In this document: positions 4,994 through 64,000 of the stretch, piece after piece | How the letters are laid out: each line of letters opens with the position of its first letter | Position numbering within the stretch: the first letter of the stretch is position 1 | From: Pontederia crassipes | Taxonomy: Eukaryota > Streptophyta > Magnoliopsida > Commelinales > Pontederiaceae | DNA length: 64,000 nucleotides | NCBI GenBank assembly: GCA_030549335.1 | Contig: CM060195.1 | Location: 12,553,501 to 12,617,500 of the forward strand | Reading direction: 5' to 3' | The notes under the pieces: model-generated | What the model was told of the DNA's origin: nothing | Databases searched by the model: none | The model's input: only the letters and a program-made list of their open reading frames with translations | Position numbers and translations under genes: made by a program

Positions 4994-5042
4994 CGCAATC
5001 ATGACTATATAAGCATCTAAACTTACTTATAATTAGCATTTA

Positions 5043-11096: not shown

Positions 11097-11157
11097 GTAG
11101 TCTCCGGGTTAGGAGATTAGTTATGAGGGCTGTGGGACCGGCTGAGCATTCGGATGT
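9766..11157. repeat. 696-bp direct tandem duplication
   Basis: The GCGCCCATATTAATG string begins at 9766 and at 10462, and both units end with CGGCTGAGCATTCGGATGT at 10461 and 11157. Only a few substitutions separate them by eye (for example two codons near 9838 and 10500), so the duplication is recent. Unit length is a multiple of three. Confidence 0.95.
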
Positions 11158-15152: not shown

Positions 15153-15158
15153 AAAACT

Positions 15159-20230: not shown

Positions 20231-20259
20231 TGAATGTTCGGAATGACAACAACTCCCAA

Positions 20260-20966: not shown

Positions 20967-21263
20967 TTCTCCCTTCTTACAAAGAATACTTAGATTTAGG
21001 AACTAGAAGAGGGAAGGGATGATTTGCAAAATTGCGCTCTAGAAAATGCTTTAGACTTGAAGGATGCTATAGAGTAATTTCCCTTGCTTGAATAATCTTT
21101 CTTTAGCCTTTAAAATCCCTTTTATAGGTTTTGTTTTCAAAATATGACTGTTGCAATACTTTTTGAAAAGTTAAACTTGTGCTACCACTTCTGAAGCGGA
21201 CACATGTGTTGTCTTGGTCGTCCGTCTCGTATGTTGTCTTTTGAACTTGACGCCCAGAACGGT
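20967..21263 (-). mobile_element. SIRE/Maximus-like LTR fragment
   Basis: Read on the minus strand this is the middle to end of a long copia-type LTR whose start is at 35205. The fragments at 34916-35205 and here are contiguous if the Athila-like element is removed. The same segment recurs at 29897-30230. The CACTA end abuts it on the left, so the CACTA element inserted into this LTR. Confidence 0.6.
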
Positions 21264-28658: not shown

Positions 28659-28697
28659 AGAAAGTAAAAATTACATAAATATAAAGAGGTAAAAAGT

Positions 28698-29896
28698 TAA
28701 ATGTTTGAGGATGCATACAATGAGAAGATGGTTGAGAAATACGGAGATGATCCGAGTACTCGACCACTAGAGATTCATGTTTTTAATTTATATAACACCT
28801 TATGTGTTTGTGTTTTTTTTATGTTATATAACTTATATAATCTATAATGTTTATATGATTGTATATTTTTTCTATTTCGTAGAGCACCCTGCTGTTTGTG
28901 AGGAGGTGGCCGACACGACACGAGGATACCTGCATGCCCTAGGAGGAGCAGAGAGGATATGCAGGCGGCCCATCTGCTCTGAACTCATCCACTGCACCTG
29001 TTGTGACACAGCTATCACAACAGATATCGCAGGAGGTGTCGCAGCAGTGTTCGCAACAGTTATCATAGCAGTTGGCTCCTTTATTGTAGGCGATTCAGGA
29101 ATTGATCCCGCCGCAGAATAAATCCTCACGAGGCCAAGGACCAATCACGTCGGGAACGAATGTCCGGAATGACAACAACTCCCAAATTTAGGATAAAAAC
29201 TTTTGCATGATTTAGGTATACTTTTTTTACTTATACATTTGTTATTAGATATATGTGTAGTAGTTATACTTTTGTTAGTTCAATTTATAACTTTTCATAT
29301 TGTTATCTTTGATATGATGCATGTGATGAATGATGAATGCATTTATATGCATTATATAATTGTATGGTGTGAGAAGGGAAGAAAATATGACAATAATGGA
29401 GCAAAAATATCTGAAATTAGTGCCTCTATAGGGTCTCAATGGCATCGCATGCATAGTCGATCCTACTTTAAATATATCATCCTTAGTGTCACATTTGCGT
29501 TGACATATTGAGCGTCACATTAGCGTCGCCTTGGAGACCCGTGAATTAAAACATTGGCGCCACCGTAGCGCCGAACTAGTGTCGACGTAGTATAACCTTA
29601 GTCACTTGAGCATCGGAATAGCGTTACGAAATTTTATGCCACTTTCGTGTCGCGTTAGCGACACAACTCGAATCTCGCAATGACACTTTACAACGTCGAG
29701 GTAGCATCGACAGTTGATGCTAGTCGTGTCGCCTTCTGTTTTGGTGCCATTGTGATGCTATTAGCTACCGATTACAAGCGTCTCACATTTTCGGCGCTAG
29801 GTCGACGCTAAAGAGACGCTATTATTTTTAGACACGCATTAGCGCCTCAAAAGCATCACCATTGATGTGTCACTGTTCCCCTGTTTACTTGTAGTG
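28698..29896 (+). mobile_element. Duplicated CACTA 3' end with intact TIR
   Basis: This is a copy of 19769-20966. It contains the last exon(s) of the second CACTA gene (28704-29120), the subterminal repeats (about 29500-29860) and the TIR CTGTTTACTTGTAGTG at 29881-29896, ending in the canonical GTAGTG. It joins upstream to a truncated Athila LTR rather than to CACTA sequence, so it is one end only. Confidence 0.8.
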
Positions 29897-30230
29897 CAAA
29901 TTCTCTAAACAAGAACACAAGAATTCTCTCTAATTCTTCCATCTTACAAAGAATGCTCAAACTTAGGAACTAGAAGAGCGAAGGGATGATTTTGCAAAAT
30001 TGAGCTCTAGAAAATGCTTTAGACTTGAAGGATGATATAGAGTAATTTCCCTTGCTTCGATAATCTTTCTTCAATCTTTAGAATCCATGTTATAGGTTTT
30101 TCTTCAAAATATGACCATTGCAAGACTTTTGGAAAAGTTAAACTTGTGCTGCCACTTCTGAAGTGGACACCTGTGTTATTTCGGTCGTCCATCTCGTATG
30201 TTGTCTTTTGAACTTGACGCCCAGAACAGT
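29897..30230 (-). mobile_element. SIRE/Maximus-like LTR fragment, second copy
   Basis: A copy of 20967-21263 that also retains about 45 bp next to the CACTA end (AACAAGAACACAAGAATTC region, typical of the SIRE LTR end). Read on the minus strand it continues the LTR piece at 34916-35205. Confidence 0.6.
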
Positions 30231-32343
30231 TGATGCAAAAATTGATAACAGTAGCTAGCAAGTGTAGTAATCGCTCAAGTAATAAAGTGAAAAGTATAGG
30301 TTCTCGATCCTCGAGAAACTAGTTTACTTCTCTATCAAACTTCAGAGGCTAATAGAAGATGACATAAGATTTTGGGGTAAAAGTTGTGCAGAAAGTAAAA
30401 ACTACAGAAATATAAAGAGGTAAAAAGATAAAGGAAACTAAAACTAAAACTAAATTAAACTACCGATGTATAGATCCTTAGGATGATGTATCATAAGATA
30501 GACAAACTGATAGTACCAGAAAGCATTAAGTTGTTTCGATTGATGGATTAGAATCTACTCTAGGTATCGATTTTCTATCAGAACAAATCAAACTATCTCA
30601 ATTTTTTATTTAATATAATTACTCTATCTAAGATCATAATTAAATCAAATAGATATTGAGACACATTAAATTTCATATTCTAGACTATTGATATCCATAT
30701 AATGGTAATATTCAATAGACCGCATAGCACGTAATTCCGTCAAGGATCCTACGAGTATGTTATATAATGCTCTGACTTCTGAACCTTAAATCAATTCCAG
30801 AGCTGTCATGCAAACTTAGGACGACAATTCCCACAAGGATAATAGCCAACTGAAGATAACAATCAATCTCTGAAAAGCATTAGGAGCAGCATATATAATC
30901 AAAAGAAAATAACTTTATTTAATGAAACAGAGGTCTATGAGTCTGCCTTTTAACAACATAAGTATTACAAACCTAGAACAATAAATCTAAATTAAGAACT
31001 AAGAACTAAAGTAATCTTAAACTACAAGAAAGAACCACAAAAGAACTAAAGATAAAGAGATGTAATATCATCCCAACATAAAGTAGAACAAATAACACTC
31101 TTTGGGAATCACCAATTAACTGCTACTGAACTCTCGTCTAGAGTCGATCTAGCCGAAGTCTTCTCATAAAGCCTTTAGAGTCTTCTCACATTTGTAGGAC
31201 CTAGCATGATTAATTGTGGCTACCAGACGTCTCTTTTTATAGGGTCTTCGATTTCCAAGTGGCTTTGGAAGAAATAGAAATATTTTCCATGTGAAATAAG
31301 GTAAATTCGGGGTCCCATAGGTTTTGAAAGTTTGCCTTGTAAAACTCTGAAATTTCTGGCCTAATTAGTTTCCAATTGACTTTAGGACATACCATAGGAG
31401 TTGAGTCCTTGTTCGTTGAGAATTCTTTCGAAAATATGTTTCTAAGTCGATTTAGGTGTCTGTCATGCCCCCTGCAATAGATTTAATGGCCAAATTAGAG
31501 TCGGAGTCAGATTTTTGTTTTCCTTCACGGGATGTGAGAAGGATCTCACAGCCATTATTCGAGCAATTTTTACTTTCATTGTGCAACTTATGTGCTTTCA
31601 CGGCCCGTAACATTCTTCTAACGGTCTGTGAGCCTTGAACTAGGTCGCCTGATCATTTTGTGATATCCGTGAAAGACTAAGGTGCTCCGTTAACATGAAC
31701 CTTCAAGTTCCTTCAGCATGTAACAACCCGTGAAGGTAAACCCACAGCCCGTTAGTTGATTATTTGTGATTCTGCACCTTTTGTGATATCCGTAAAAGCA
31801 ATATAACGGTCGGTGATGGTAATTGGGGAGCGTAACGGTCCATTAAAAGATTCTCACGGTCTGTTAAAATACATCAAAATCAAATTTCATGTAGGAGCCG
31901 TGAGACTTCAATGATCCGTGAGACTTTGTAATAACGGCCGTGATAAAACTTTCACGGTCCATAAGTAATCTTCATTTGACCCATGCATTCCTTTGGCCCG
32001 TGAAATGCAATGTGCGTCGTAATATTTGGTCTTCACGGCCGTGATGAAGATTTTACGACCCGTGAGACCACTGCCAGAGCTGTGAAAATGGGTAGTTGAT
32101 GCATGAGTCAGTATCTTAAGATAGTGTTCACAGCCCGTGACACGCATTTCTTCTGTGCAATCTCTTCTGTAAGCATGGTGAACGTTTGTTTGCGAGTCGT
32201 GGCCGATCCCATAACGGCCGTGATAATCTTATAACAGCCCGTACGAGGGATATTTGACATCTTATGAATGTTTGGACTCCTTTTTGCATGATTCTTCTTT
32301 TCCTTTGTTCCTCTGCCATTTTTATTCAAAATCCCTGCAAATT

Positions 32344-40765: not shown

Positions 40766-43569
40766 GCATTTTGGGTCATTTAGCTATCTAATATTGAAAA
40801 TGCATATGTTGCTCATTAGGTCAAATCTTATCTTTCGACAAATGAGGGTATTTGATTATACACTTATTAGTCCACATTTTGACATTTAAGATTTATTTTA
40901 CTTACATGGTATTTTTGCAAGAACACATAATTTTGAATCTAAATAAATGAATGACAACAATGTTGTAGTTAACATTTTATCTTCACCTTTTTCTTTATTG
41001 GTGGCATAAGAATTGAAAAAGTTATTTTGAAATTTTGAAATTAAGAATTTAAAGATAATTTTGAAAATTTACATCACATCCATAATAGCCTTTTTTTTAC
41101 TTGTGATAATATATTTGAAAAACATCCTTTCACACATGTCAAAGAAAGTAAACTATATGTATATCTTCATCTCTTGTCACTTTTATTATTATTGTCATTT
41201 TGTTAGAAAAAGAAAATGATATATGCGACTATTTTTTTACAAATCATTTATCTATTAGGGATTTATAATTATTTATACATTATTAACTTGGACATAATCA
41301 TTTGATATGATAAGAAAGAAGAACAATTTTAAGAATTCTTTTAGACAACATTATGCTTATCTTTGTAAATTTAGACATGTCCATGATAATTCTTTGAAAT
41401 ACCATTCTACTTGTTATTCATACGAATTCATGGTCACTGTATTTTTTAATACAAAGCTGAAAAACTAATCATAGTGAAATAACATGACTAACAATCTTGA
41501 ACCCAATCTAATTTGGGTACTAAAATTCAAATAAACTTTTGAATGTAGATGTACATCACATGAAAAGAAAAATAAAAATGAAGTTGAAATGAGGTGGACG
41601 CATGAAGTTTGTGGTAAAGGTATTTTGGCATATGAAAATTTGAACTTATTTTAATTTCATGCATACTTATGCCTTGAATTTATTTATTTATTGTCATAAT
41701 GTGTGCATGAGTTAACAATTGATAAAAGATTAGGATCTTTGTGCATACTAGAATTATCTTGCTCATATAATCTTCAAAATGCCTATATTATGCTTTTTTA
41801 CTATATATGTTTAATTAGAGTATGTCTATTGTGTATGATGGTAGCTAAGTTAACATTTTTTAACTACATTTCTAATTCAATGTGGAAATCATATTAGCAA
41901 AATAAGGACACATATCAAAACTAAAGTTTTTATGCATATATGCCTCTTCACACTCATGTTGATTTTGACATTGAGCATGCATACTTGATTTATATGAACC
42001 TTGTGTGTTATTGATATCTTAATATTTGTGATTTAATATACTTTTATGTGAATATATTTTTTAACTGTGTAGAAAATAATAAATGACTTTGCTTGATTGA
42101 AGTTTGATTATCACATTTTTTATTGATGATATTTTATATTTTATGACTTTTAAAATTAAAGAAGTCATAATTTTGATATAATAATTGAATATCTTTTGAA
42201 TGTTTAGAAATGAAAACTTGTGGAAGATTTTTGAAATTAATAAATAATAACTTCTTTTTTACTAGTGATAATATACTTGTAAAATCTATGTCGTCCACAT
42301 GTTAAAGAAATAAAATTATTTGTACCCTTGTCATACTTATTATCACGATTATTCTTTTGATTTGGTAAAGAAAAAACACGTGAATTTATTTGCTAAGTCT
42401 TCTTATTTTTATTATTTTTTGTTTATCTATAAAGGAGACTTTATGTTTATGACAAATATATATGGCATGATTTTAATATGTCTCTTTTGTTATGAGATTT
42501 ATGCACATTAACTTATTATGAATTTTGACTTGTTATACATTGTCATTTGGGTATACATGAACATTATGAATTTTTATAAATTAATTTGGACTAAGATGAT
42601 TGATTGCATTACTATAGCATTTGAAAAATATTGCATAAGTAATTTAACAATTAAATTTTATATATACTTATGTACATATTTAAAATGAAGCATATTACTA
42701 AAGAAGTCATTTTCAACTTGTTATACACATATCTTATCAAAATTAATTTTATATGCTCATTCTATGAAATATCTTAACATGACTTTTGCATTTTCATACT
42801 ATCATGTCATGTAATAAAATTATTTCCACTCATTTGTAATTCGAAATAGCTACTACCATTTTAAGAAAGAGAGAGTAGGTAAAAGATTAAATTTCGGATA
42901 CTTTTCTAGTTTCATTTAGCATTTTCTTGTCACTAATCTTGATTATTATCTTATAACAAAGAAAGAAGAAAAACAAAAGGAAAATGGATTTGAAGGGGTG
43001 AAAGCACAAAGTTTATGGTAAAAAATATTATTTTGAGCATATAAATAAAAACTTGCATATATTTGTGTGTTACGATTATTTGTGCTTTACACTTATCATA
43101 ATTTGTGCACAAACATGTAATTCTAGAAAAGCGATAAGTTTAACTTTGGAAATGCTTATGTTATTTATTATGCTTAACTTTTAAAAATTGTGAGCATGTA
43201 TATATAATCAGGCTCTTATTAGTTTTTATCTAGATATTTGATGTTTTGTGGATTTGCTATTGACAAAAGTCAAGGTTTCATAATTGTATCAAAAAATTAA
43301 TTTTTATTTAAATATCATATACTTCATTTGTATTTTTCTTGGCATATGAACTTTTGTGTTATAAGATTAATGTGCATAAATTTATATGGTCATGACTTGT
43401 TATCCTATGAGTATTCATATATACACATGACCAGCAAATTTGAAATGATGTTTAAAAGATATCTTTCTTAGACAAATGAAAATATATGTAAGACTCTGAC
43501 TTTGTGTAAGAATATATTTACATTTGAGATATTTATGTATCAATTTTTTACTTACATGAGCATGAACCA
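40766..43569. other. AT-rich sequence with diverged 1.1-kb repeats
   Basis: No gene is recognised. Diverged direct repeats are visible: TTTTTACTTGTGATAATATA at about 41095 against TTTTTACTAGTGATAATATA at about 42255, both followed by CACATGT..AAAGAAA. A second pair around GATTAATGTGCATAAATTTA (about 43365) and GATTTATGCACATTAACTTA (about 42496) also recurs. This may be old SIRE 3' region. Confidence 0.45.
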
Positions 43570-44511
43570 ACATTTTCATGATTTGTAAAATTATTTTATT
43601 ATCTCTTCTTAACATGACTCTTATGTTTTAAGCTTAACATTTTCATCTTAAGAAAATCAAGTTTTGAGCACTCATTCGCAATAATAAATTGTTATTGTTT
43701 TCTTTTGGAGGACAAAAGGGGACATAGAGGACTAAAAGAATATGGAAAGACAGAAACATAATGATGGGGGAGTTTATTCAAAAGTTTGAACTATTAATTC
43801 CTCCACTCATTTTGAATATGGTTTTATTAAATGAAAACTTATCATCTTCTCCTACTCATATTGTCAAATCCTTAATTATTTGATATAATTCAATTTAACT
43901 TTGACATATCATTATTGTCTCAAAATTTTATGAAATGTTTTGATTCCTTATATTAGCTTTGGAGGTGTGTTATTCATAACCCCTGAATCAATTTGATTTC
44001 ATATTTTTCTCTTATGAACCGATCATGAACATAGGGTGGTTATTTTTGTCTATCGCATATATTATATTTGAAATAACTCCTATGATGTGATCAAAGAATG
44101 AAAATTATTTTTCATTCTTTCTTATAATATTTTACACATATTTTCTTATATGAAAAAGGGGGAGAATGAAAAAATCAGAAATATGACATGATTAAGGGTG
44201 AGTAACATTTGTCTCACATTTATGTTTAATGTGAAAACTATTTTTTTATGAGACAAAAGGGGAGAAATTAGGAGAAGTATGATAAGAACACAAGAGAAAT
44301 TTATATAGGATAAATATATATAACCCTGATTATTCTGTGGACCTCATGAATATAACTATATATGAAAAGTACCTTACAATTTAAACTTATGTGCATATCT
44401 ATTGTAAGGAAGACTTAGTTTTAGGAGTAAAATTGACTTTAATGTTTTTTCTTTCCCAACTTATATACTTTTCTTATCTCTCGGATTGTCTTCATAAAAA
44501 AAGGTGGAGAT
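43570..44511 (+). mobile_element. 3' untranslated region of a SIRE-like element with repeated purine tracts
   Basis: Homologous to 58430-59349. It contains AAAAAGGGGGAGAATG (about 44154), CAAAAGGGGAGAAATTAG (about 44255) and, directly before the LTR, AAAAAAAGGTGGAGAT (44495-44510). Several polypurine-like motifs upstream of the LTR are a feature of the SIRE/Maximus lineage. No coding sequence is recognised. Confidence 0.6.
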
Positions 44512-45872
44512 TATTGGAACAAATTTTTTATGCCCTATATAATTATATTTTGATAATACAAAACCTCGAACGATTTAAAATAATGGTTAAAATGTTGAAA
44601 AAATTCAAATAAGAATGAGTTTCTTCATGCACTAAACTTTATATTAAGATGTGAATATAAAAATTATACATAATTCTCTTATCTTTTTAAAGAATCTAGA
44701 ATCACCTCATTTGGACAAGCATATGAAAAGTTATGCTTAAACAAGTGAAACCCAAAAAGTTAAATTTGAAGCTGATATTTCTATGCACTGAACATGCACT
44801 TAGTATTTAATTACTTTATATAAGATCATCTCATTTAGATACTTTTACGTAAAGTTGTGTGTAAAAGAGTAAAGGTCTAAAAAGTTTAATTTAAAATGGA
44901 TAACTTTATGCACTAAACTTTGACATAATATTCATCTATGATCTCATTAGAGTTTGAATGAAAGATGAATATCAAAATTGTAGATAATTTTATTATATTT
45001 GTATAGAATAAAAAATCACCTTATTTGGATAATTGTGTAAAAAGATATGTATAAAAGTGTGCAGGTCTCAATGGAGTAACAGACGCCTGATCCAAGAAAC
45101 AGACAACTCATTTATTGTCTATAATGGCTATATTTCAGCGACATTCAAAACGGATGCTCGCTAGAAGAAACGGACACTCGTTTTAATGAGAAAAGTACAA
45201 AATGGTTAGTTTTGAATACCAACGACTATGGAAAAGATTGGAGGCTGTAAAAAAGGTCAAAAACATATCAAGAAGATCAAGACTTCTAACAAAAAGATAG
45301 ACAAACACTTGTGTTCATCTAAGAAGTCATATTGAGCTCAAAGTTGCAAATCTTTCATTTCCTTCTCTCTTATTCTCGTATGAGGTTTCAAATTGTAAAA
45401 GAGTGATTGATGAGTGTTCTTGTGATATAGTAATAGTGGTTTAGCTTCTTAGTGAAAAGAGGTTGTGTTTACCTCTTGAGCGAAGAAAATGTGGGTGATA
45501 ACTTTTGAGTAGGAGATGTGTATCTTACCTCTTGAAGCAAAGGGAAGGCAAGAGTTGTAAATGGTTTCTTCCTTGCCCCAGTTGAAACAAAGAAGGATAT
45601 TAGTGAAACCTCGAGGTCGAGAAATTAGAACGATGACGTAGGCTAAGGTGTCGCCAAATCTCTTCAATAAAATACAGTGCATTTTGTGTTCATTTTTTCT
45701 CTCTCTATCCTTCCTACTTTATTATATATGTGATTTGATCATTATTATGCTAGTTTAAAGTTTACCAAATCAGTTTTGTTCTTCAGGACATATTTTGTAA
45801 AATTAATATTTTTGATAAAACACCAATTCACCCCACCCACCCACTCATGTCTTGTCAGTAGCATTTTGTGAT
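44512..45872 (+). mobile_element. SIRE-like 3' LTR, decayed
   Basis: Starts TATTGGAACAAATTTT (from TGTTGGAACAAA) after a polypurine tract and ends around ACACCAATTCACCCC..TTTTGTGAT, the characteristic end of SIRE-lineage LTRs. About 1.36 kb, collinear with 59350-61111. No partner 5' LTR or coding region is in the window. Confidence 0.65.
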
Positions 45873-46660: not shown

Positions 46661-46665
46661 ATAAC
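46661..46665. repeat. Target-site duplication ATAAC, left copy
   Basis: ATAAC directly precedes the LTR start at 46666 and recurs at 52817-52821 directly after the last LTR, bracketing the whole three-LTR copia compound. Confidence 0.85.
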
Positions 46666-47113
46666 TGTTACGAAAAAGGGGAGAGAGGGATCGCACGAAA
46701 TACAGAAGAACACGAAGAGGAAAAACGGCGGCGGCTCTTTGTTATGGAATAATGATGATTACAAGGATAGGTCTCGATCTAGACCCCTAGGGAGTTTATA
46801 TAGGCACTCCCTTTGACAGATGATAGGAATTACATACGGACTGGGACTCTAAATAAATCCCCTGAAAATAGGACACCTATCTCGTGATAAGGAAATAAAT
46901 TAAATCCGAATCACAAACAGAATACCCCTAAAAAATTTTCGCTCAGGGGGCTCCGCCCCCTTGCAACCCCCGCAGGGGGGATCCCCCTGGATCCCCCCCT
47001 TGACCCCCCATAGGCTCGCTGACCGGGCAGCAAGACCCCCGTAGGGGAATTCTGCTGAAGCGCCTGACTATGTAGGGGGACCAATTGGGTTCAGATTCAA
47101 GGCATTATTAACA
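46666..47113 (-). repeat. 3' LTR of the full-length copia element
   Basis: 448 bp, TGTTACGAAA to ATTATTAACA. The minus-strand TATA box is TATATAAAC at 46794-46802. The U3 half (about 46889-47113) contains G/C-run hairpins at 46934-47010. Only the first 223 bp recur in the middle LTR. Confidence 0.88.
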
Positions 47114-47130
47114 AATCTCCACCTTGACTT
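47114..47130 (-). other. Polypurine tract of the full-length copia element
   Basis: The minus strand reads AAGTCAAGGTGGAGATT immediately before the LTR start TGTTAATAAT. The same tract, slightly changed, is at 51796-51812. Confidence 0.75.
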
Positions 47131-47188
47131 GAATCATCTTCAGAGCACAAAAGTATTCCACGCCGCCGCCAGTCCTATCTTAAAGCTA

Positions 47189-50100
47189 TTACCAAGTATT
47201 TATGTTAAGCAAGTCCAAACAATGTTGAAACTTGTCATAAGGAACAGATTTGGTGAACATATCAGCTGGATTATCTTCAGTGTCAATCTTCTTCACCTTG
47301 ATCCTCTTCTCAGTGCGGATGAAGTGATATCTGACATCAATGTGTTTGGTTCTTTCATGATGTACTTGATCCTTGGCTAAACATATTGCACTCAGACTGT
47401 CACAGTGCACTATAGCCTGCTCCTGATGTAATCCGAGATCTCCAACTAAGCCTTTTAACCAGATGCCTTCCTTGGCAGCTTCCGTCAGTGCCATGTATTC
47501 AGCCTCTGTGGTGGACAATGTAACTGATGGTTGAAGTGTAGCCTTCCAACTAACAACTGAACTGCCCAAAGTGAAGACATAACCTGTCATAGATCGTCTT
47601 CCATCAACATCTCCAGCATAATCTGAATCTGAGTACCCTGCAACCAAACACTCTTTATCACTTCTGTAGATGAGGCCAATATCAGATGTTCCTCTCAGAT
47701 ACCAAAAAATTCGCTTCACTGCTTGTCAGTGCTCCTTTCCTGGATCGCTCATGAACCTGCTAACAACACTGACTGCATGAGCAATGTCTGGTCTTGTACA
47801 AACCATGGCATACATCAAACTTCCAACTGCACTAGCATATGGAACCCGAGACATGTACTCCTTTTCTGCATCTGACTTTGGTGCGAAGGCAACAGAAAGA
47901 TGAACATTTGCAGCTGATGGAGTATTCAAAGGCTTCGCTCCAGACATTTCAAACCTGGATAAAATCTTCTCAATATAACTTTTCTGAGATAAGAAGAGTT
48001 TACCCTGTGCGCGATCCCTTAGAATTTCCATCCCCAGAATCTTCTGTGCTGCACCAAGATCTTTCATGTCGAATTCTGCACTGAGGAGCTTCTTCAGATT
48101 TTGAATGTCTGCCATGTCTCTGGCAGCAATAAGCATATCATCAACATACAAGAGCAGATAGATGGTGGAGCCGCCCTTCGCCTTCTTGTGGTATACACAG
48201 CAATCATAGGGACTTCGACTGAATCCCTTACTGATCATGAAGCTGTCGAACCTCTTGTACCATTGTCTGGGAGACTGCTTCAAGCCATACAGAGATTTCT
48301 TCAGACTGCAAACTTGATTCTCCTTTCCAGGAATGGAGAATCCCTCTGGTTGGCTCATAAGAATATCTTCTTCAAGTTCTCCATGTAGAAAGCAGTCTTC
48401 ACATCTAGTTGCTCGAGCTCTAGATTCTGATGTGCTACAAGAGCAAGTAGCACCCTGATAGAAGTATGTCTGACAACAGGTGAGAATATCTCATTGTAGT
48501 CCACACCTTCTTTCTGACTATAACCTTTAGCAACCAATCGTGCTTTGTATCTCGTGCCTTCAACTCTTGAAATTCCTGCTTTCTTCTTGAAGATCCATTT
48601 ACAGCCAACAACCTTCCTGCCTTTAGGCAACTTGACCAGCTCCCACGTCTGATTCTTGTGAAGAGATTCCATCTCCTCACCCATAGCAGCGATCCCCTGT
48701 ACAGATTCGGCACATGTGATGGAATCCCTATAAGAGGACGGCTCCAGGGACTCCACCTCTTCAGCTACCTGTAGTGCATAAGCAACCATGTCCTCGAAAC
48801 CATATCGCTTAGGAGGACCCACTTCTCTGCGAGGACGTCTAGTAGCAATTGACTCCTCTTCAGGTTGCTCATCAGATTCTTCACCTTCTGGTTCTGCTTC
48901 TTGATGTGATCCTTCAGCATCATCCTCAATTTGAGTGATTTCAACCTCCACCTATTTACTGACACTCTCTTCAGCCTCCACCTTCAACTGAAGCATTGAT
49001 GCTTCATCAAAAGTTACGCTTCTGCTGTGGATGACTTTGTGTTCTGAAGGAGACCAGATTCTGTAGTCCTTCACTCCTGCACCATATCCCATGAACACCC
49101 CTTCTTTGGCCCTTGGCTCCAACTTCCCTTCACTGACGTGATAGTATGCTGGACAACCAAAAACTTTCAGACAAGTATAATCAGTAGGATTTCCTGACCA
49201 TACCTCAGTTGGAGTCTTGAGATCAATCGCAGTCGCCGGACTTCGATTCACCAAGTAGCAAGCTGTATTAACAGCTTCAGCTCAGAATGTCCTATTTAGG
49301 CCAGCGTTAGAGAGAATGCACCTTGCCCTCTCCAGAAGTGTCCTGTTCATTCATTCTGCAACTTCATTCTGCTGTGGAGTATCCCTGACTATGCGATGCC
49401 TGGCAATGCCTTCATCTTTGCAGAACTGGTCGAATTCAGCAGAACAGAATTCCAAACCATTGTCAGTGCGAAGACGCTTCACTTTCTTCGACGTCTGATT
49501 TTCCACCAGAACCTTCCACTGCTTGAAGGCCTTGAAGGACTCACTCTTGTGTTTCATCATGAATACCCAAGTCATCCTCGAGTAGTCATCAATCACAGAT
49601 AGGAAGTACCTCGCACCTCCTAATGATGGAACATGAAAGGGACCCCAATAGTCGGCGTGGATGTAGTCAAGTGTCGCCTTCGTCCTGTGCACTGCCTTGC
49701 CAAACTGAGACCTTCGCTGTTTGCCGAATACGCAGTGCTTACAGAAGTTTATCTCATATATCTTCTTCTCCCCTAGAAGACCTCGTTTGCTGAGGATATT
49801 CATCCCGTTCTGACTCATATGCCCAAGCCGCATGTGCCACAGCCTGGACCTTTCTGATTCGGATGAACTAGCCACTGCAGCAACGCCAGAGACTGTCTTG
49901 CCTTGTAATACATACAAGGACTTCTTTCTGACTCCCTTCAGAACCGTAGCATCGCCTTTCATGACTGTGAGGATGCCTCCAGCAGCATTGATCTGACACC
50001 CTTTAGAGTCGAGGACTCCAAGTGATATCAAATTCTTTTTCAGTTGCGGAACATGGCGGACATCTGTCAGCGTCCTCACAAGATTGTCATGAGTCCTGAT

Positions 50101-51096
50101 CTGCACAGAACCGATCTCAACTATCTGACAGGCTGCATCATTGCCCATGATGACGTTTCCACCATCAATATTTTGATAAGTTGAGAACCACTCTTTATTC
50201 GGAGTCATATGATAGGAACACCCCGAATCCAGAATCCAACTATCCGTCAGACATCCTTGATCAGAAGCAGCCAGAACCAAATCATCTTCGGAATTTCCTG
50301 TTTCATGTGCCACCGCAGCGACAGGGGCCTTCTTCTTCTTCGGACAATCCTTCTTCCAATGACCTGGTTCCTTGCAGTAATTACAGATGTCTTTCGCAGT
50401 GATTTTCTTCTTCTTTGACTTGGATTTCTTTGAATTCGAGGACTGTCCCTTCTCTGCGGTTGATATCAAACCCGCGGCCTGAGTCTCTACAGAATTTCCA
50501 GATGCCCTATGCCGAAGTTCACGAGTATGGAGACTCGATCTTACTTCTTCCAGACTTATAGTTTCCTTCCCGATAATCATAGACTGAACGAAATTTTCAT
50601 ATGATGGAGGAAGCGAAACTAACAGAATTAGGGCAGCATCTTCATCCTCGATCTTAACATCGATATTTCTGAGTTCCATCAACAAAGAATTTGACTGATC
50701 AAGATGTTCCTTCAGAGGGGTACCTTCCTGCATGCGGAGAGAGAACAGACGTTGCTTCAACAGCAACTTGTTGGTGAGAGACTTCGTCATATATAGACTC
50801 TCGAGTCTCAACCACAGACCGGCCGCTTTTTCTTCATCTGCGACCTCGATTATCACCTCATTCGCCAGACACAACAGGATCATCGAGTGCGCCTTCTCCT
50901 CCTATGCCGCCAAAGTTGCGAGGTCGATCTCCTTTTCTTTGCCTTTCGAGTCTTCCTCCTTTGGCTTGTTCTTCGACACGTTTGAGAGCGGCGCCCAGAC
51001 TCCTTGTTGCTTCAAAAGTGCCCGCATCTTGATCTGCCACAACCCGAAACTGTTTCTGTCGTTGAACTTCTCCACGCTCACGTTGTGCGACGTCAT
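47189..51096 (-). pseudogene. Copia gag-pol polyprotein gene with five stops and one frameshift
   Basis: Gag starts MTSHNVSVEKFNDRNSFGLW at 51096. The zinc knuckle CNYCKEPGHWKKDC (CX2CX4HX4C) is at about 50340-50385 and the protease WILDSGCSYHMT at about 50210-50245. The integrase zinc region is HMRLGHMSQNGM..CKHCVFGKQ, and the core has DYWGPF and RTDNGLEF. The reverse transcriptase shows [23 protein letters not shown] and LLLYVDDMLIA (about 48140), and RNase [17 protein letters not shown] to [14 protein letters not shown], ending at 47189. Lesions: TAG 50902-50904, TGA 49351-49353, TGA 49282-49284, TAG 48952-48954, a one-base loss near 48387, TGA 47726-47728. At least three stops look like C-to-T changes. 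Otherwise the domain order is complete for Ty1/copia (integrase before reverse transcriptase). Confidence 0.92.
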
Positions 51097-51127
51097 CTCT
51101 CTGCTGATCGAGAATCGTTGACAAACT

Positions 51128-51144
51128 CTAAGGCTCTGATACCA
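51128..51144 (-). other. Primer-binding site, initiator-Met tRNA type
   Basis: The minus strand reads TGGTATCAGAGCCTTAG three bases inside the LTR boundary at 51148. An inverted copy of 16 of these bases lies at 51371-51386. Confidence 0.9.
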
Positions 51145-51147
51145 GTT

Positions 51148-51795
51148 TGTTACGAAAAAGGGGAGAGAGGGATCGCACGAAATACAGAAGAACACGAAGA
51201 GGAAAAACGGCGGCGGCTCTTTGTTATGGAATAATGATGATTACAAGGATAGATCTCGATCTAGACCCCTAGGGAGTTTATATAGGCACTCCCTTTGACA
51301 GATGATAGGAATTACATACGGACTGGGACTCTAAATAAATCCCCTGAAAATAGGACACCTATCTCGTGATGGTATCAGAGCCTTAGGGTCTGACTTCCTG
51401 AAGACCCTTGAAGATCTCGGCCAACTTGAATTCCTTCCTGGAATCAAATTGGGCCGGGCGCCCACCTGGCACCCGCCACGCCCAGGCGCGCCCTGGCTGT
51501 CCAGTCCGAGTCCCACTCGGACTGGGACTCCTCCAGGCGCCCCTGCTGTCTTCAAGTCTTTCTCTATGTCCAGACTCCATATTCAAGTGCTCCTCGGTTC
51601 AGAAGGGAGCTCGACCCTCCAAGAATCCGCCATATCCTTATCGACATCGGAAACCGGCCGACTCCTATTCCTACTAGGAGTAGGAATCCTTCCGACCCTG
51701 CACTTCTCGTCCAAGCATCTCTCGAAGTCTCTCTATTACTTCTTTGGATCCAAACAGATTTTCAGTTAAAGTAGGATTCAAGGCATTATTTGACA
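51148..51795 (-). repeat. Chimeric middle LTR: core promoter of one copia LTR fused to U3 of another
   Basis: Bases 51148-51370 match the first LTR (46666-46888), including the TATA box at 51276-51284. Bases 51390-51795 match the last 406 bp of the third LTR (52411-52816), with about five differences. The 19-base join 51371-51389 contains GGTATCAGAGCCTTAG, the exact inverted copy of the adjacent primer site. In minus-strand terms U3 comes from the second LTR type and the core promoter, R and U5 from the first. Plus-strand ORFs in this stretch are not genes. Confidence 0.85.
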
Positions 51796-51862
51796 AATCT
51801 CCACCTTGAATTGAATCCTACAATCAGATATCTAACACTCTCTGCCGCCGCCAATCCCTGTT

Positions 51863-52093
51863 CTAATTTTTCACAGCCTTGCCAGACTCCCTATGACGAA
51901 GTTCACGAGTATGTAGACTCGATCTTACTTCTTTCAGAGTAATTATGTCTCTTCTGATGATAATAGATTATACGAAATTTCCGTACGACAGAGGAAGAGA
52001 CACCAACAGAAATAGGGCAGCATCTTCATCCTCAATCTTCACATCTATATTTCGTCCAATAAATTTCTCGACGTTGACGTTGTGCGATGCCAT
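51863..52093 (-). pseudogene. Mini-gag remnant of a deleted copia derivative
   Basis: The start MASHNVNVEKFIGRN at 52093 matches the gag start at 51096. After about 14 residues it jumps to IDVKIEDEDAALFLLVSLP, which in the full element lies about 110 residues further on. It continues to LHTRELRHR and stops at 51863, with an in-frame stop between. The internal deletion therefore joins gag ends and removes everything after. It has no enzymatic capacity. Confidence 0.75.
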
Positions 52094-52126
52094 CTCTACG
52101 CCTGACGGAGGATCGATGATGAAGCC

Positions 52127-52140
52127 TCGCTCTGATACCA
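52127..52140 (-). other. Primer-binding site of the deleted copia derivative
   Basis: The minus strand reads TGGTATCAGAGCGA next to the LTR boundary at 52144, initiator-Met type. Confidence 0.85.
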
Positions 52141-52143
52141 ATT

Positions 52144-52816
52144 TGTTAGAATTTCTGCACGAGAGAAATTACGCATCGCGAGAAAACCCGAGAAATTTAA
52201 GGCGACGCAGAATTGTATTAGATGGAAGAAACAGAAGAGGATTACAAGATCAGATGATCCAGGATTATCCAGGATGGTCTTATAAGCCTTGATTACAAGT
52301 CCTTTTATAGGGTCTTGGAGAAACAACTCCTACTCTAACTTAAGAACCTAATCCTACTAGGCATGTAAGTCCCTTCTCTAAAAAAACCTCCTTGGACTAC
52401 GAGTAGAAATCTGACTTCCTGAAGACCCTTGAAGATCTCGGCCAACTTGAATTCTTTCCTGGAATCAAATTGGGCCGGGCGCCCACTTGGCACCCGCCAC
52501 GCCCAGGCGCGCCCTGGCTGTCCAGTCCGAGTCCCACTCGGACTGGGACTCCTCCAGGCGCCCCTGCTGTCTTCAAGTCTTTCTCTATGTCCAGACTCCA
52601 TATTCAAGTGCTCCTCGGTTCAGAAGGGAGCTCGACCCTCCAAGAATCCGTCATATCCTTATCGACATCGGAAGCCGGCCGACTCCTATTCCTACTAGGA
52701 GTAGGAATCCTTCCGACCCTGCACTTCTCGTTCAAGCATCTCTCGAAGTCTCTCTATTACTTCTTTGGATCCAAACAGATTTTCAGTTAAAGTAGGATTC
52801 AAGGCATTATTTGACA
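52144..52816 (-). repeat. Terminal LTR of the deleted copia derivative
   Basis: 673 bp, TGTTAGAATT to TATTTGACA. The minus-strand TATA box CTATAAAAGG is at 52301-52310. Its last 406 bp are shared with the middle LTR; its first 267 bp are unique here. It is followed by ATAAC. Confidence 0.85.
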
Positions 52817-52821
52817 ATAAC

Positions 52822-55800: not shown

Positions 55801-58429
55801 AAGTTATTTCTTAATATGATTTACTACATAGCTTTACATCATAATTTTCTTACTAATTAAGATATTAATATGCCAATTTGTCTAAAGCCCATAAACAATG
55901 GTAATAAATTTTCATGTGAACAATAATTTCAGTAAGTTAATAGTGTTAATTGTGATAATAGCAATGATAATAGCATTTTGTTGTTGTTGTTGTCGAGTAC
56001 TTTTTTATATTATTTCATGTTTTATTTGTCTAATATTAGAAAGGGCTGAAATGGAAAGAAGATAGAAATCATGTAGATAGATATTCCCTTCCTAGTCAAT
56101 GTGAATTGTTATTTCATAGGCAAATTTCATTGCTATGCAATGTAGATTCTCTTCATATTAAAATAAAAGTAAACAACATAATTTGGTGGTCTCACATAAT
56201 TTACCTTCATATTACCAATAATCTAGAATGGTTACTTATAGGAAATACTCCCTAAAGGAAGTGCTTGGTAAAGACCTTTTCAATTAGTTTGAAATTATAA
56301 ATTGACATTTCAACACTTCTAACTAAACACCCAACAAGTTAGCAAAATCACATGACATAAATCAATTTTCATCCAATTTGAAAACCCCAATTCAACCCCT
56401 CCCCCTATTGACGTCATTTTGATCGAACATTTGGTATGGGAAACAAGTATCTTGTTAAACATCTAACATCATAAGTCAATCACATTTGGTGAGTGAATAA
56501 AAAAGTTATTTCTTAGTTTCACCATCTTTCTATCCTAGCCACATGTGTTTTGATTTTCTCTTGCCACCTTTTGATAACAATTGTGTGCTTTTAATAATTG
56601 CAAATCCTATTTTATACTTTGATTGACAAGGAATCATGCAGAAATTGGTTGTTTTTGAAGGAGAATATGTTCTCCTTCCATGTTAGATGGACACCTTGGT
56701 GAAGAAGAAAGAGTAAGTCCCTAAAAAATGATGATGAATTAGAAAAGGAATTTCAATATTGAATATAATGCCTCAAGACACACTTTCCCATGTGACAGGC
56801 TTTAGAGTCATTACAATATATTACTTACATGGACTCTATTTTGACCAAACCTAAACATTGACTTGTCAACAAAAATGGTGTATAATTTTAATAAAATGAA
56901 TACAAATTGATTCTCAAGTATCAAATACAATGTGATGAAAAGGTCAAGAACATAAAGAAATTCGACATAATGTGCAAAGATCATCACGAGCTTAGTTTGT
57001 CATTTACGCCACCCTATACTTGTGACACTTTGACATGCAGTACATAAAGGAGATGAACCTCTTATGAGCTTTGACATGCAATACATAAAGGAGATGAACC
57101 TCTCATGAACTTTGACATGCAACATAAAGCATAACTTTGACGTGCAATACATAATAATCATGTGGATCATAATCATAGACAATAACATCATGCGAATGAA
57201 AGCCTCATAATTATTAAGCATGGGATAGAACATCATAGTATGAGAGATATAACATAGTGAATTGTCATAATCATAGGGATCATTGAATATATAATATATG
57301 ACATATTCAATCGATAATCATTGATAAGAATGAAACATCATGACAATAGAAAGGACATGATATCCCTTGTCATGATCATCTAAATCATACTATTGGTAAT
57401 CAATCACATAATCGTAGCTCATTATGATAAAGATCAATAAGATTGATTGTCTGACATCATATCATGATCATTGAGGAATCATTATTTAATCATAAATGCA
57501 TCATTATTATCCATCATCATATGGATATTTGAGATCTACATTTAGCATAACTAGGTTAGTGAAATAGAATCATCATTGTGTGAATCAGTAATAACATAAT
57601 GCATAATCTATCATAAGATCAAGGATCATCAATAAGATCATTGGGCATACCCCATCATCATTAGTAGTCATCGTTCATTTTATATTTGTTAAGTTACACT
57701 TATTATAGATTGTTTTTCAACTCCATTTAATATGATCCACTTAGTATCTTTCAATTTCATTATGTCTAAGGTGAAGTATTTCAACTTCAATTATAGAGTG
57801 TCTTTCAACTCTTTAAAACATGGAATGTTGGAATATTATTACAAGTACTTTTTTCTCTTTTATCTTATTTAATCTATTATTATCTTTGTGTTCAGATAAA
57901 AAGTTATGCGGTAATATGATCATGAGTGTCCAAATCATGATAAGATCATAAAAAGAGTCATATGAAATTAGATCATGATGAGGGATGTACATAATTATCA
58001 TTTGATTATAAATTAGTATTCATTGACTCATGAGATTATTTGGTATCATTAAGCCATCTATGATTAACATAACTAGTCAAAATTAGGAGTTATCAAGAAA
58101 TCAGTATTGTGCACATAAGGTACGATAATTTAATAAATCAAATGCATAATGTGATTTCCATTACAATTATTAATCGATAATAAAGATATATATATGATCA
58201 ATCAATATGAAGCATAAAATATCAGTAATCATCAATTAGGACACAAGGTGTTATGGCACTATTTTTTAAATTGAACCAGACCTAAGAAGACATGGACAAT
58301 TATTTCTTGTAGATAAAATTCTCATATTTTGATTCATTGTTAGTTGTTCTTAGAAATTTTCATAATGAATTTAATCTCATGCTATTTTGATGTCTTTAAC
58401 TAACTTAATATAATCATAAAATCATGGAT
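52822..58429. other. Long AT-rich stretch without a recognisable gene
   Basis: I see no protein family or RNA gene. Local features are a 38-codon ORF on the minus strand (53005-52889), a GC-rich string GGCGCCCGCGCAATGAGCG at 53587-53605, a 36-bp tandem pair around CTCATCCTTAGATGG (about 54392 and 54428), a (TTG)n run near 55978, and a 40-bp repeat with TTTGACATGCARTACATAA (57028-57150). From 57150 to 58250 the sequence is dominated by ATCAT-like strings. Confidence 0.5.
57028..57150. repeat. Short tandem repeat, about 40-bp units
   Basis: TTTGACATGCAGTACATAA, then AAGGAGATGAACCTCT, recurs about 40 bp later with two changes, followed by two shortened units. About three copies, degenerate. Confidence 0.75.
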
Positions 58430-59349
58430 CTATATTTTCACGATTTGAAAATTTATTTTATTATCATATCTTAGCACGGATGTTTTAAGCTTAAAATCTT
58501 CATATTATGAAAATTAAGTTTTGACCCCTCATTCATAATGTTATATTGTTATCATTTTTTTTGGAAGAAAAGGAAACATATAAATGACTAAAGGAAGATA
58601 GAAAGAGAAAGAAAATTGGTCATAATGATTGGGAGAGCTTGTTCAAAAGGTTGAAATATTATTTCCTCCACTCACTTTGGATATGATTTTGTTACCCTTA
58701 TTATCAAATCCTTAATTATTTGATATAATTCAATTTAAATTTGACATATCATTGTTATCTCAAAATTTTATACAATATTTTGATTCCTTATATAATTTTT
58801 TGAAACTTGTATTATTCATAACCTTTAACCCCTATCTCAATTTGATTTCATGTTTTGTTCTTATGAACCGGTTATGAACTTAGGGAGAGTTATTTTTTGC
58901 CTATCACATCTCTTATACTTGAAACAATTCTTGTGACGTGACCAAAGAATAAAAAATTATTTTCATCTCTCTTATAATATTTATTGTTTCTTATATGACA
59001 AAAGGGGGAGAATGAAATTTTTAGGAAGATGACATGATTAAGGGGGAGTTTGTTTTTTATATGCTTAATGTGCAAACTACTTTTTTATAAGACAAAAGGG
59101 GAGAAATATGATAAGAACATAAGAGCAATTTATATAGGAGAAATAGATATAACCCTAATTTATTATGTGGACCTAATGCATATAACTCTATAAGAAAAGT
59201 ACATTATAATTAAGACTTATGTGTATATCTACCATTGGAAGGAAAGTTTAGTTTTAGAGGAGTTAAATTTTGATTTTGATATCTTTTCCTTCCCTACTTA
59301 TATATTTTTTATATCTCTCTGTTTGTCTTCATAAAAAAAAGAGGGAGAT
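58430..59349 (+). mobile_element. 3' untranslated region of a second SIRE-like element
   Basis: Collinear with 43570-44511. It has AAAGGGGGAGAATG (about 59003), TTAAGGGGGAGTTTG (about 59039), CAAAAGGGGAGAAATATG (about 59093) and AAAAAAAAGAGGGAGAT directly before the LTR (59333-59349). No coding region is recognised. Confidence 0.6.
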
Positions 59350-61111
59350 TTTTTTAACAAAGTTTTTATATCATATATAATTCTATTTTGATGATACAAA
59401 CCTCAAAATATTTAGAGTTATATTTAAATTACTGAAAAATTTTAAATAAGAATAAGTTGCTTCATGCACTAAGCTTTCGATTGACATTTATGTTTCTATA
59501 ATATTTACATTAAGAGGTGAATACAAAAGTTATAGATAATTTTTTTATCTTTGTAGAGCATTAATAATCACCTCATTTGGCCAATCACATAAAAAGTTAT
59601 ATCTAAACTAAAAGTGAATTTCGAAAAGTTTAATTTGAAGTTAATATTTTTATGTGCTAAACTTGGATTTAATATTTGAATATTTTATCATAAGATTTGG
59701 ATCAAGAGATTAATATAAAAGTTATGGATAATGTTGTAGAGCATTAAGAATCACCTCATTTGGACAATCACATAAAAAGTTATATCTAAACTAAATAAGT
59801 GAAACTCGAAAAGTTTAATTTGAAGTTGATATTTTTATGTGCTAAACTTGCATTTAATATTTGAATATTTTATCATAAGATTTGGATCAAGAGATTAATA
59901 AAAAAGTTATGGATAATGTTGTTATCTTTTCATGAAATCAAACATAATCTAATTTGGATACTCATATGAAAAGTTATGTATAAAAGAGTAAATGTCTAAA
60001 AAAGTTTAATTTAAAATAGACAACTTTATGTACTGAACTTTGAATAAATATTCGACTGTGATCTCATTATATTTTTAGATGAATGATAAATATCAAATTC
60101 TAGAAAATTTTGTTAGCTTTCCATAGAATAAAAAATCATCTCATTTCTATAACTGTTCAAACGTTATGTTCAAAATAGTGCATGGTGATCAATCTATCGG
60201 TTGAAGCACCGATCGATCATCAATACATTGGCCGACCGATCAACACACAAAATACAAAAAAATCAACCAGTTAAACCCAACAAAATATTGAGATGATGTC
60301 AGTCGAAGCATCGATCGATTGGTCAGCCAGGAAAATGCAAAAATTGATCGGTCAGCCTGGAAAATGCGAAAATTGGTCAGTTAAAGCTAGCAAAATGTCC
60401 AGATGATGTCGAAGTGCCGGTCGACCAGACATTCAACTAGTCGATATGCAGAACTCACAAATAGTTATTTTTCCAATGGCTATGTAAAGCAGAACGCATT
60501 ATAATGATCATATTTCAGCCCAAAAGGTGATCAATAAGAGTTAAGAAAGCTATAAAAGGGGTCCCAAGGTGAAGGCATGACTTAGACTTCTAAAAAAAAG
60601 TGGGAAAAACATCTGTGAAGTCCAATTTGCAAATATTTCATTTCTTTCTCTCTTGGTCTTGTGTGAGGTTTCAAGTTGTAAAAAGAGATTGCAGAGTATT
60701 TTTGTGATATTGTAATAGTTGTATAACTCTTGAGTGCAAAGAGATTGTCTTACGTAAGAAAAGATGAGTGAAAGCTTCCAAGTGGAAGATGTGTGCCTTA
60801 TCTCTCGAAGTGGAGAAAAGATAAGAGTTGTAAAAGGTTTCTTCCTTGTCCTATTTGAAATGAAGGAAGGGTATTAGTGGAATCTCCCCGTGGTCTCGGA
60901 GGTCGAGGAGTCAAAGCGGGAACGTAGACAACGTGTGGCCAAATCTCATCAACAAATTATCATGCATCTTGTGTTTGTCTTTCTATTATGCATGTGATTT
61001 AATTATTTTTGTATTTGTTTAAAGTTTAAGGAACTGATTTTAAACTTCTGTGAGTATTTTCGATTTAAACACCAATTCACCCTCCTCTTCTTAGTGCTTT
61101 GTGATCCTACA
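59350..61111 (+). mobile_element. Second SIRE-like 3' LTR
   Basis: Follows a polypurine tract and ends ACACCAATTCACCCTCCTC..TTTGTGATCCTACA, the typical SIRE-lineage LTR end. About 1.76 kb, longer than the copy at 44512 because of internal repeats (59530-59930 carries near-identical 180-bp units around CACCTCATTTGG). A segment at 60180-60450 has many CGATCGGTCGACC-like strings. Confidence 0.65.
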
Positions 61112-63228
61112 CATATGATGGGGAATAAATTTGAATAAAACAAAATAATATAATATCCTATATTATATTTTATTCTAATTTATGTTTGGAATAAAGGAGA
61201 ATAAAACCTGTGAAATAATAATATTTTGTATTAGAAACATTTTATCATAAGTAGTTGATATTTGTTATTATAAAAACAATAATACAATACTATATGTTTT
61301 AAAAAATAGAGTAAAAAAAAGTTGGAATATAATAATTTCTTGCTATACATGGGATCATTAGTTTCATAGATAAGTGCGAGAGTATCTCGATATTTCAAAA
61401 ATATACTCAAATGTATGATAAAATTGAATTATTTTGGTCAAACTTTGAAAAATATGAAATTACATCTAAAATGATAAACTCTTTAAAGAAGAAAATAAAT
61501 ATTATTCTAAAATAGAGGAATATTTATATTCTTGATTTTGTCAAGTTTTTTCAATTTTATTTTATGTTTAGAATTTTAATAATATAATATTACATTAATA
61601 TTTTCATTGTTGTCATAATATTAAACATGTCGTATAATAAAATAATTGTATTATAACATATTAAATTTGTGACCGTTTAGTTGCAGGATGAAATTGAAGA
61701 TAATAAAATAGTGGAATATCATATTATAAAATTATATACTGTTATTATACTTGTCGTTTGGTTTAAAGAGAATCAATTGTTTTAAAAATATTATTTTATA
61801 TCTGAAATATTTTATTATACATAATTGGTGTTAATATTATAATACCAAAAAGTATTTATATAGTAACATATGATTGATTTTTTCGTAAATAAAAGCACGA
61901 TTGGAAAAGTTGAAAATTTGATAGTATAAGTGTTCTTATATTTTAGAAGAATAATTATATGGATTAATATATCTCTAAAATACTTTCCGCTTTGAAAAAA
62001 TGTTGAGCGCATCTCAATATCAATGGATGATCAAATTTTATCATTTAAATGTATCATTTATCTCAATTGTAAATAATGATGATATAGGCTTAGCATTTCA
62101 CTGATGGTGCATTAAGAATCTCATTTATCTGAAATTTCTTTTGGGGTTAAAATAAAATTTTAACTCTTTTTTATATGATTTTGGAAATTTGACTAAAATA
62201 ATTGTATTCTACTAAATGAAATGTTTGACTGCAATTTCATAATATTGACATACATTTAAGTTTATCCGACAACCATATAATTGTATTCATATTTTTAAAA
62301 GTGGTTTTCATATTTTTAAACAACCTTTGACGATATTTTCGAAATATTTTCTTCTTATTTTATAATTTTTAGAAAATGCAGCAAAAAAAGGGACATTGTC
62401 TGAAAATATAAGGCCGTGCAATAGGAACTGGAGTTTCAAGAATAGTTGAATTAAACATATTAGACACACTAATTCTTGTTGTATTTGGATTAAGTGAAAT
62501 TTAATGACAAAAAATAAAATAGTTTATATGATAGAAAAAAGTAAATATAATTACTTAATTTTAGTGGATGATTTAATTAAAAATATGTATTATAAATAGA
62601 AATTATAAAATTATTTTAAATTTAAATACATAATATATATTAAAAAAATTATGTCAACAAATTTGTTAAAAAATATATTATTTAAATTAAAAAATCATTT
62701 TTTAGCAATTTATATTCAATGAAATATTAAAAATTTCTAATGAAATAATAATAATATCATATTAATTATTTATTATTTATATTTTATATATAATAAATAA
62801 AATAATTTATATAAAAAAGTTATGAAAGAAAATTATAAAGGAAAAAAGATTTGAAAAAGAAAATAAATTGTCATTTTCTAAAAAAAGTTAAAAAAAAAAA
62901 AGTAAAGACAGTCGATTCTATCAATTTGATAAAATCTATAACTTGAAATGAGAGTTAGATGACCCCGGTTGTTTAGCTAGTCCGGAATATTGTCAAACGA
63001 ACATATTTGATGGGAGATTTAATTTTGGTGTTTTCTATTTTACCTTATTTCTTATTTTTTATATTATAAATATTTATCCAACGATTTGAATTTTTTATGT
63101 AGTTTATCATAATTGAATGAGTTAGATAAAGATTTAATGCGAAAATAAAATAAGGAACAAAATGAATGAAATAGGGAAGCAACAATGAACAACATTTTAT
63201 CGATTTGATCGGAGGGATATTTTATTTT
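61112..63228. other. AT-rich intergenic sequence upstream of the RPAP2-like gene
   Basis: No gene or known transposon is recognised. Composition is strongly AT-biased with poly-A/T runs. The last few hundred bases are the likely promoter of the downstream gene. Confidence 0.5.
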
Positions 63229-63237
63229 ATATAAATA
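63229..63237 (+). promoter_or_regulatory. Candidate TATA box of the RPAP2-like gene
   Basis: TATATAAAT lies 57 bases upstream of the ATG at 63294, leaving room for a short 5' leader. In such AT-rich sequence this is suggestive only. Confidence 0.4.
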
Positions 63238-63293
63238 TAAGTTCCGTGAAAACCCTTCGACTACAACACTTCCGAGTCCCTCGCCCTGTCGCC

Positions 63294-63873
63294 ATGGCGG
63301 CTACTCCTTTGTCGCCGACGACGGTGGCCCACGCCGTGTTCAAGGTTCAGGAGGCCCTCCTCGACGGTGTCGCCGCCTCCGATCGCCGCCTACTTCTCTC
63401 TGCCGGCGATCTTCTATCGCGCCCGGACTACAGGGACGTCGTCGAGGAGCGCTCCATCGACGACCGCTGCGGCAATCCGTTGTGCCCTAATCCTCTCCCT
63501 CCCACCGATGCCCGCCGGCGCGGCCGCTTCCATATTGCCCTCAGAGAGCATCGTGTCTACGACCTCGAGGAGGCACACAAGTACTGCTCCGAGGCCTGCC
63601 TCGTCGACAGCTCTGCCTTCGCGGCCAGCCTTCCCGCGGAGAGGACCACCGACTTGAGCACTTCCAAGGTGGAGAGCGTTCTTGATCTGTTCAGCCGTCG
63701 CGGGGATCCGCCCGAGACCTCCGCGGAGTTGGGGAAAGATGAGAATTTGGCGATGTCGAAGTTGACGATTCGGGAGAAGGAGGATGCCGCAAATGGGGAG
63801 CTGGCGTTGAATGAGTGGATTGGTCCAACGAATGCCATTGACGGATATGTTCCTCAGTTTGATCTGAAGCAAG
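63294..63873 (+). CDS. RPAP2/RTR1-type RNA polymerase II CTD Ser5 phosphatase, first exon
   Basis: This is the only host gene found. RPAP2/RTR1 proteins act on phospho-Ser5 of the RNA polymerase II C-terminal domain and help polymerase assembly or nuclear import. The start is ATG 63294 (MAATPLSPTTVAHAVFKVQE), in gccATGgcg context; an upstream in-frame GTG is less likely. Cysteines 59, 64, 98 and 102 (CGNPLC and YCSEAC) form the RTR1 zinc site, CX4C then CX3C. The segment before them (LLSRPDYRDVVEERSIDDRCG) and the end GPTNAIDGYVPQ are family-typical. A donor AAG|GTAACG puts the exon end at 63873, phase 1; the frame stops nine bases later. Coding GC is high and contrasts with the flanks. The rest of the gene is beyond the window. 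Confidence 0.88.
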
Positions 63874-64000
63874 GTAACGAATGATTGAGCAGCACTATAA
63901 TTTCTGCTCTCAAGGATTTCTTCTCAAAAAGAGACAAACAAACAAGTTCTTAATTCAGTGTGTTCTTTCTCTATTTGGATTACCTTTTAGGAGAAAGATA
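63874..64000 (+). other. Start of the first intron of the RPAP2-like gene
   Basis: Begins GTAACG after the exon and is AT-rich, consistent with intron sequence; it runs off the window. Confidence 0.65.

Follow-up and report, generated by a model that had tools for sequence, protein, structure and literature searches.

A three-LTR copia insertion in Pontederia crassipes that probably arose from two elements fused before integration

A 64,000-nucleotide stretch of the Pontederia crassipes genome (GenBank assembly GCA_030549335.1, contig CM060195.1, forward-strand positions 12,553,501 to 12,617,500; hereafter the window, to which all positions refer) contains a composite of two copia-type retrotransposons, A and B, that shares one chimeric long terminal repeat (LTR) and is enclosed by a single target-site duplication. 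The composite spans 46666-52816 (6,151 bp), with all of its LTRs and interiors on the minus strand. From left to right it consists of LTR_A, a broken gag-pol interior, the chimeric LTR, a 348-bp interior of gag remnants and LTR_B; read in the sense of the elements, from right to left, the B unit is upstream and the A unit downstream (Table 1). From the sequence, we estimate a probability of about 0.72 that the DNA of A and B was fused while extrachromosomal and then integrated once as a complex three-LTR insertion.

One flanking duplication around unlike outer LTRs

Inspection of the outer boundaries reveals a perfect 5-bp ATAAC that adjoins the exact terminus of LTR_A on one side and the exact terminus of LTR_B on the other. 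Two 5-mers drawn at random from the two 1-kb flanks would agree with a chance of 0.0023, and the position of ATAAC beside exact A and B termini suggests a single integration of pre-fused A-B DNA. The outer LTRs themselves are dissimilar, with 16 and 13 bp as their longest blocks in common by short-word blastn. Because they differ, fusion would need two nearly complete complementary DNAs (cDNAs). The two LTR types have similar ends (TGTT/TGTC ... TAACA) and, near the start of U3, a 16-bp block in common, for which reason one integrase could take the ends of A and B together. The preliminary description of this locus, which concerned the middle LTR, lacked the ATAAC around the whole structure, the second primer-binding site with its small interior at 51796-52143, and the broken state of the coding interior.

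These flanks also bear on the assembly itself. Repeats of this type are prone to misassembly, but a false join of two repeat copies would place ATAAC on both outer flanks by chance alone, with the same 0.0023, and would leave the 18-base inverted copy described below unexplained. An assembly artefact is therefore extremely unlikely.

A templated join inside the chimeric LTR

The middle LTR consists of two parts, each of which is closely matched by an LTR elsewhere in the composite. The type-A part is identical to the left LTR (46666-46888) at 222/223 positions, a single difference, while the type-B part of 407 bp agrees with the right LTR (52410-52816) at 402/407, with 5 differences. All six differences are transitions, the two rates (1/223 and 5/407) are not significantly different (Fisher p 0.43), and this similar divergence of both parts fits a single insertion date. 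Both breaks lie upstream of the TATA box, by ~85 bp in A and ~100 bp in B, such that the chimeric LTR keeps one core promoter. A rival view, in which a third family has the chimeric LTR as its normal LTR and the locus became a mosaic through subsequent exchanges, would require no fewer than two additional exchanges. The ~99% identity of each part to an LTR within the composite, together with the match of the insert to the adjacent primer-binding site, makes such a mosaic highly unlikely.

Between the two parts lie 18 bases (51371-51388, GGTATCAGAGCCTTAGGG) that form an inverted copy of the primer-binding-site region of A. Taken together with the common T at 51370, the join agrees with the reverse complement of 51126-51144 at 18/19 positions, the first 17 of them without interruption. 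Elsewhere in the window a single other site scores at least 14/19 against the insert, and its score is 14; 150 random 19-mers taken from window positions 1-45000 reached a maximum of 15/19 against the composite. Window 17-mers with a reverse complement within 1 kb are likewise rare (7/63,984), and two of the 7 are the insert and primer-site pair. The primer-binding site of B has 12 bases in common with the insert and no more. The chimera of two LTR types, its retained core promoter and the inverted primer-site copy at the join had all been proposed in the preliminary description, and each is confirmed here within a base (407 rather than 406 bp of type B; a join of 18 rather than 19 bases).

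The insert ends at an informative place. The primer-binding site proper of A occupies 51133-51144 (TGGTATCAGAGC), and the insert edge falls on its 5' edge within 1 base. Minus-strand DNA normally ends at the 5' edge of the primer-binding site, and such a free 3' end is expected in every round of reverse transcription. Because normal minus-strand DNA stops there, an insert edge on this boundary fits a free minus-strand 3' end. Thirteen bases of the insert are complementary to the 3' end of what we take to be the plant initiator transfer RNA (tRNA-Met), and five of the six positions beyond this stretch match element A. Copying from tRNA alone was rejected because the insert leaves the presumed tRNA sequence after 13 bases and follows element A; the earlier suggestion that element material was copied thus holds, whether that material was DNA, cDNA or RNA.

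Two further origins were considered and rejected. The usual primer-site inserts of two-LTR circles are in direct orientation at the U5/U3 ends, whereas the present insert is inverted and lies within U3. Nesting of one element inside the other, whether A in B or B in A, does not fit a structure with no extra flanking duplication and no residual R-U5 of B beside A. Pattern searches gave 0 matches to the junction in a collection of viral contigs and 0 matches to LTR-A in prokaryote genome contigs, the latter being uninformative because the collection is prokaryotic. The gag-integrase piece of A matched 1 stretch by pattern in the viral contigs, with 0 confirmed.

Possible routes to the proposed fusion and published classes of complex elements

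The likeliest explanation of the arrangement is an event late in reverse transcription, in which B (upstream) and A (downstream), present as two nearly complete cDNAs, fused inside the particle. The growing A strand would stop within U3 (alternatively, the plus strand of U3_B would stop), and the stalled polymerase would step onto the free 3' primer-site end of an A minus strand and copy 19 bases. It would then switch to U3_B at a place where the sequences partly agree, template TTTGTC and B TCTGAC having 4/6 positions in common at the B side of the join; plus-strand synthesis starting from U3_B would give the identical sequence. The fused molecule would be integrated once, its two termini being U3 of B and U5 of A. 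That is to say, reverse transcriptase may have bridged two co-packaged elements via a free 3' primer-site end, and integrase may have taken unlike ends and inserted both as one unit, a scheme to which we give slightly less than even odds. Tnt1 vectors show that a plant copia element can undergo both mixed packaging and template switching (PMC2923131).

The preliminary description had named template switching or self-priming during reverse transcription. Reverse transcription is plausible as the origin, and the flanking duplication argues for fusion ahead of integration. Self-priming by fold-back receives little support. Fold-back with homology was rejected here, as the strand end offers one matching base and the loop would measure ~225 bases. 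A yeast fold-back case (PMC11724301) involves 10-base imperfect inverted microhomologies and a 41-base loop.

A different enzyme could have performed the same fusion. Host end joining of the polymerase-theta type, with filler templated by snap-back or in trans, may have joined two incomplete cDNAs before integration and would leave an identical sequence outcome, such that the sequence cannot decide between reverse transcriptase and end joining for this step. In carrot callus, LTR-LTR junctions of circles with small indels are credited by their authors to end joining of extrachromosomal linear copies (PMC9324142), and Ty1 replication intermediates are captured at yeast breaks by end joining (PMC10802722, a preprint). 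Under end joining, however, the insert edge at the primer-site boundary would be a coincidence. Fusion probably occurred during reverse transcription, with end joining of two cDNAs less likely and, taken by itself, rather improbable; within the overall estimate, reverse transcriptase as the fusing enzyme falls just short of an even chance.

Several points weigh against fusion before integration. The published template-switching model does not yield unlike outer LTRs (PMC1950507), microhomology on the A side of the join amounts to one base, and plant break repair, too, commonly leaves short filler copied from adjacent sequence (PMC3289645). Table 1 of PMC1950507 contains 20 recombinant and 2 template-switching complexes (its text has two out of the 20), and because recombinant complexes outnumber template-switching ones, the prior favours recombination. 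By that route, A and B would have inserted separately, close to one another and in the same orientation, and a break repaired by end joining of the U3 in B's 3' LTR to the U3 in A's 5' LTR would have deleted the DNA between them, with filler from the nearby primer site. Filler of 1-36 bp, mostly from nearby sequence, in tobacco and Arabidopsis (PMC3289645) and short inverted templated insertions at yeast breaks (PMC11724301) accord with such repair. The LTRs begin with TGT and end with TAACA, and an exchange exactly at the terminus would preserve an older duplication, although it needs a crossover within 5 bp or less. The flanks of separate insertions should not pair, yet ATAAC is present on both sides (chance 0.0023), and the published mark of recombinants is the lack of a flanking duplication (PMC1950507). 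Post-insertion recombination is thus unlikely, and we continue to favour fusion of extrachromosomal DNA followed by one integration.

According to Sabot and Schulman (PMC1950507), a flanking duplication separates pre-integration complexes from later recombinants, and similar outer LTRs are also required of the template-switching class, since one cycle of reverse transcription makes them identical. Their template-switching complexes (Sabot and Schulman 2007; Angela, Squiq and Opie) resemble the present composite in having three LTRs, two interiors, one 5-bp duplication and one proposed integration. They differ in their highly similar outer LTRs, which here are of unlike types, and in the present composite one interior is a small remnant and the join lies in U3 with an inverted primer-site copy. 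Of the features that define this class, the third LTR between the interiors and the flanking duplication are present, whereas two complete core sequences (interior B has 348 bp) and highly similar outer LTRs are absent. Recombinant complexes (Devos et al. 2002, in the account given by PMC1950507) share a chimeric inner LTR and unlike outer LTRs with the composite. In contrast, they carry no flanking duplication, which here is perfect. Neither published class fully accommodates the composite, which satisfies one test of each and fails another; it is a variant of complex LTR retrotransposons.

Two further systems invite comparison. The IDENTAM tandem LTR retrotransposons (PMC11899658) also have an internal LTR in common, and 10/28 clear Nipponbare tandems carry a perfect 5-nt duplication; they were sought as highly similar repeats of one unit, whereas two diverged elements are joined here. 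The chimeric LTR of Tnt1, a product of template switching (PMC2923131), is likewise a copia LTR derived from two templates in plant cells, but in the present composite the inner LTR alone is chimeric. An inverted primer-site insert at a chimeric LTR join appeared in none of the matches listed, judged by title and start of abstract, in a literature search that covers subscription journals thinly and does not imply absence from print.

Element interiors, surrounding repeats and consequences

Element A is assigned to Ty1/copia by its domain order of gag, zf-CCHC, rve and RVT_2, with integrase ahead of reverse transcriptase, and by TG...CA LTRs with a 5-bp target duplication, the duplication being common to A and B. 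The Pfam families found in its interior are Retrotran_gag_2, zf-CCHC, Pol_BBD, gag_pre-integrs, rve and RVT_2; no Pfam family was found in the RNase H-side piece at 47189-47725. Open stretches at 50905-51147, 49354-50901, 48955-49281 and 48358-48951 share one frame, and those at 47729-48490 and 47192-47725 occupy another. The frame is broken at least 5 times, by a stop in gag, at least one stop in 49,282-49,353, a stop near 48,953, a frame change inside reverse transcriptase and a stop ahead of the RNase H side, and A thus lacks the intact polyprotein expected of an autonomous element. Interior B contains a primer-binding site (52129-52140), a gag start, a later gag piece and a polypurine tract at its end, and is 81% identical to A over 181 bp (50489-50669 of A). 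Because its gag remnants match A, stops are present and pol does not fit into 348 bp, B is a small non-autonomous relative of A.

Table 1. Coordinates of the composite and its parts in the window
Feature	Positions	Strand	Basis
Target-site duplication, left copy, ATAAC	46661..46665	.	Read directly in sequence
Left LTR, type A (3' LTR of element A), TGTTAATAATG...CGTAACA in sense	46666..47113	-	
Interior of element A: gag, integrase and reverse-transcriptase pieces	47114..51147	-	Pfam and open stretches
Primer-binding site of A and adjoining leader; best match to inverted copy	51126..51144	-	
Chimeric middle LTR (648 bp), serving A as 5' LTR and B as 3' LTR	51148..51795	-	
Type-A part: proximal U3 with TATA box, R, U5 (R and U5 limits inferred)	51148..51370	-	
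18-base join, inverted copy of A primer-binding-site region	51371..51388	+	
Type-B distal U3	51389..51795	-	Match to right LTR
Interior of element B, 348 bp	51796..52143	-	Sequence; translation with stops
Right LTR, type B (5' LTR of element B), TGTCAAATAATG...TTCTAACA in sense	52144..52816	-	
Target-site duplication, right copy, ATAAC	52817..52821	.	Read directly in sequence

Other repeats also occur in the window. A diverged direct repeat (43561-45690 and 58423-60975; ~70-80% identity in pieces) lies on either side of the composite. Two long direct repeats, each with copies ~9 kb apart (6024-7684 with 15158-16833 at 92% identity; 19769-23367 with 28697-32341 at 88%), are likely the LTR pairs of older elements, apparently of Gypsy/Athila type. 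Two directly adjoining tandem copies of a 696-bp unit, 99.7% identical (9766-10461 and 10462-11157), fall in a region where Athila ORF-1 is matched on the minus strand. A tandemly doubled repeat is present in inverted copies at 1753-2253 and 5042-5447, each with a sequence resembling a primer-binding site, TGGTATCAGA(G/T)CC, and an open frame at 63189-63884 with an Rtr1/RPAP2 domain is probably a piece of a host gene.

The preliminary description had anticipated that the chimeric LTR would give the coding element a new upstream promoter. This is not borne out, as the middle LTR is common to two fused elements and the frame of A is broken. Transcription of the coding element would run from the middle LTR to the left LTR, and in LTR replication the progeny of A would draw their U3 from that left LTR, every part of which is type A. 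Since progeny U3 comes from the left LTR, A would not transmit the chimeric U3; the one unit through which it could be inherited is B, which has the chimera as its 3' LTR. There the R regions of A and B differ, 10 bp being the longest common block downstream of the TATA boxes. A heritable promoter swap for A was rejected on the grounds that its 5' U3 is not inherited and that A is broken; U3 inheritance, the differing R regions and the broken frames together make a lasting role as a new promoter unlikely.

Whether three-LTR complexes form before or after integration is often left open, as it is for rice loci in PMC11899658. What makes the present composite of interest is not a promoter swap but the joint presence of a single flanking duplication, outer LTRs of different types and a templated join, which points to pre-integration fusion of different cDNAs. 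It also illustrates a way for a coding element to be physically linked with a defective one. If this account is true, the inverted primer-site stub would be a scar of such fusions, a signature that could be counted in long-read plant genomes.
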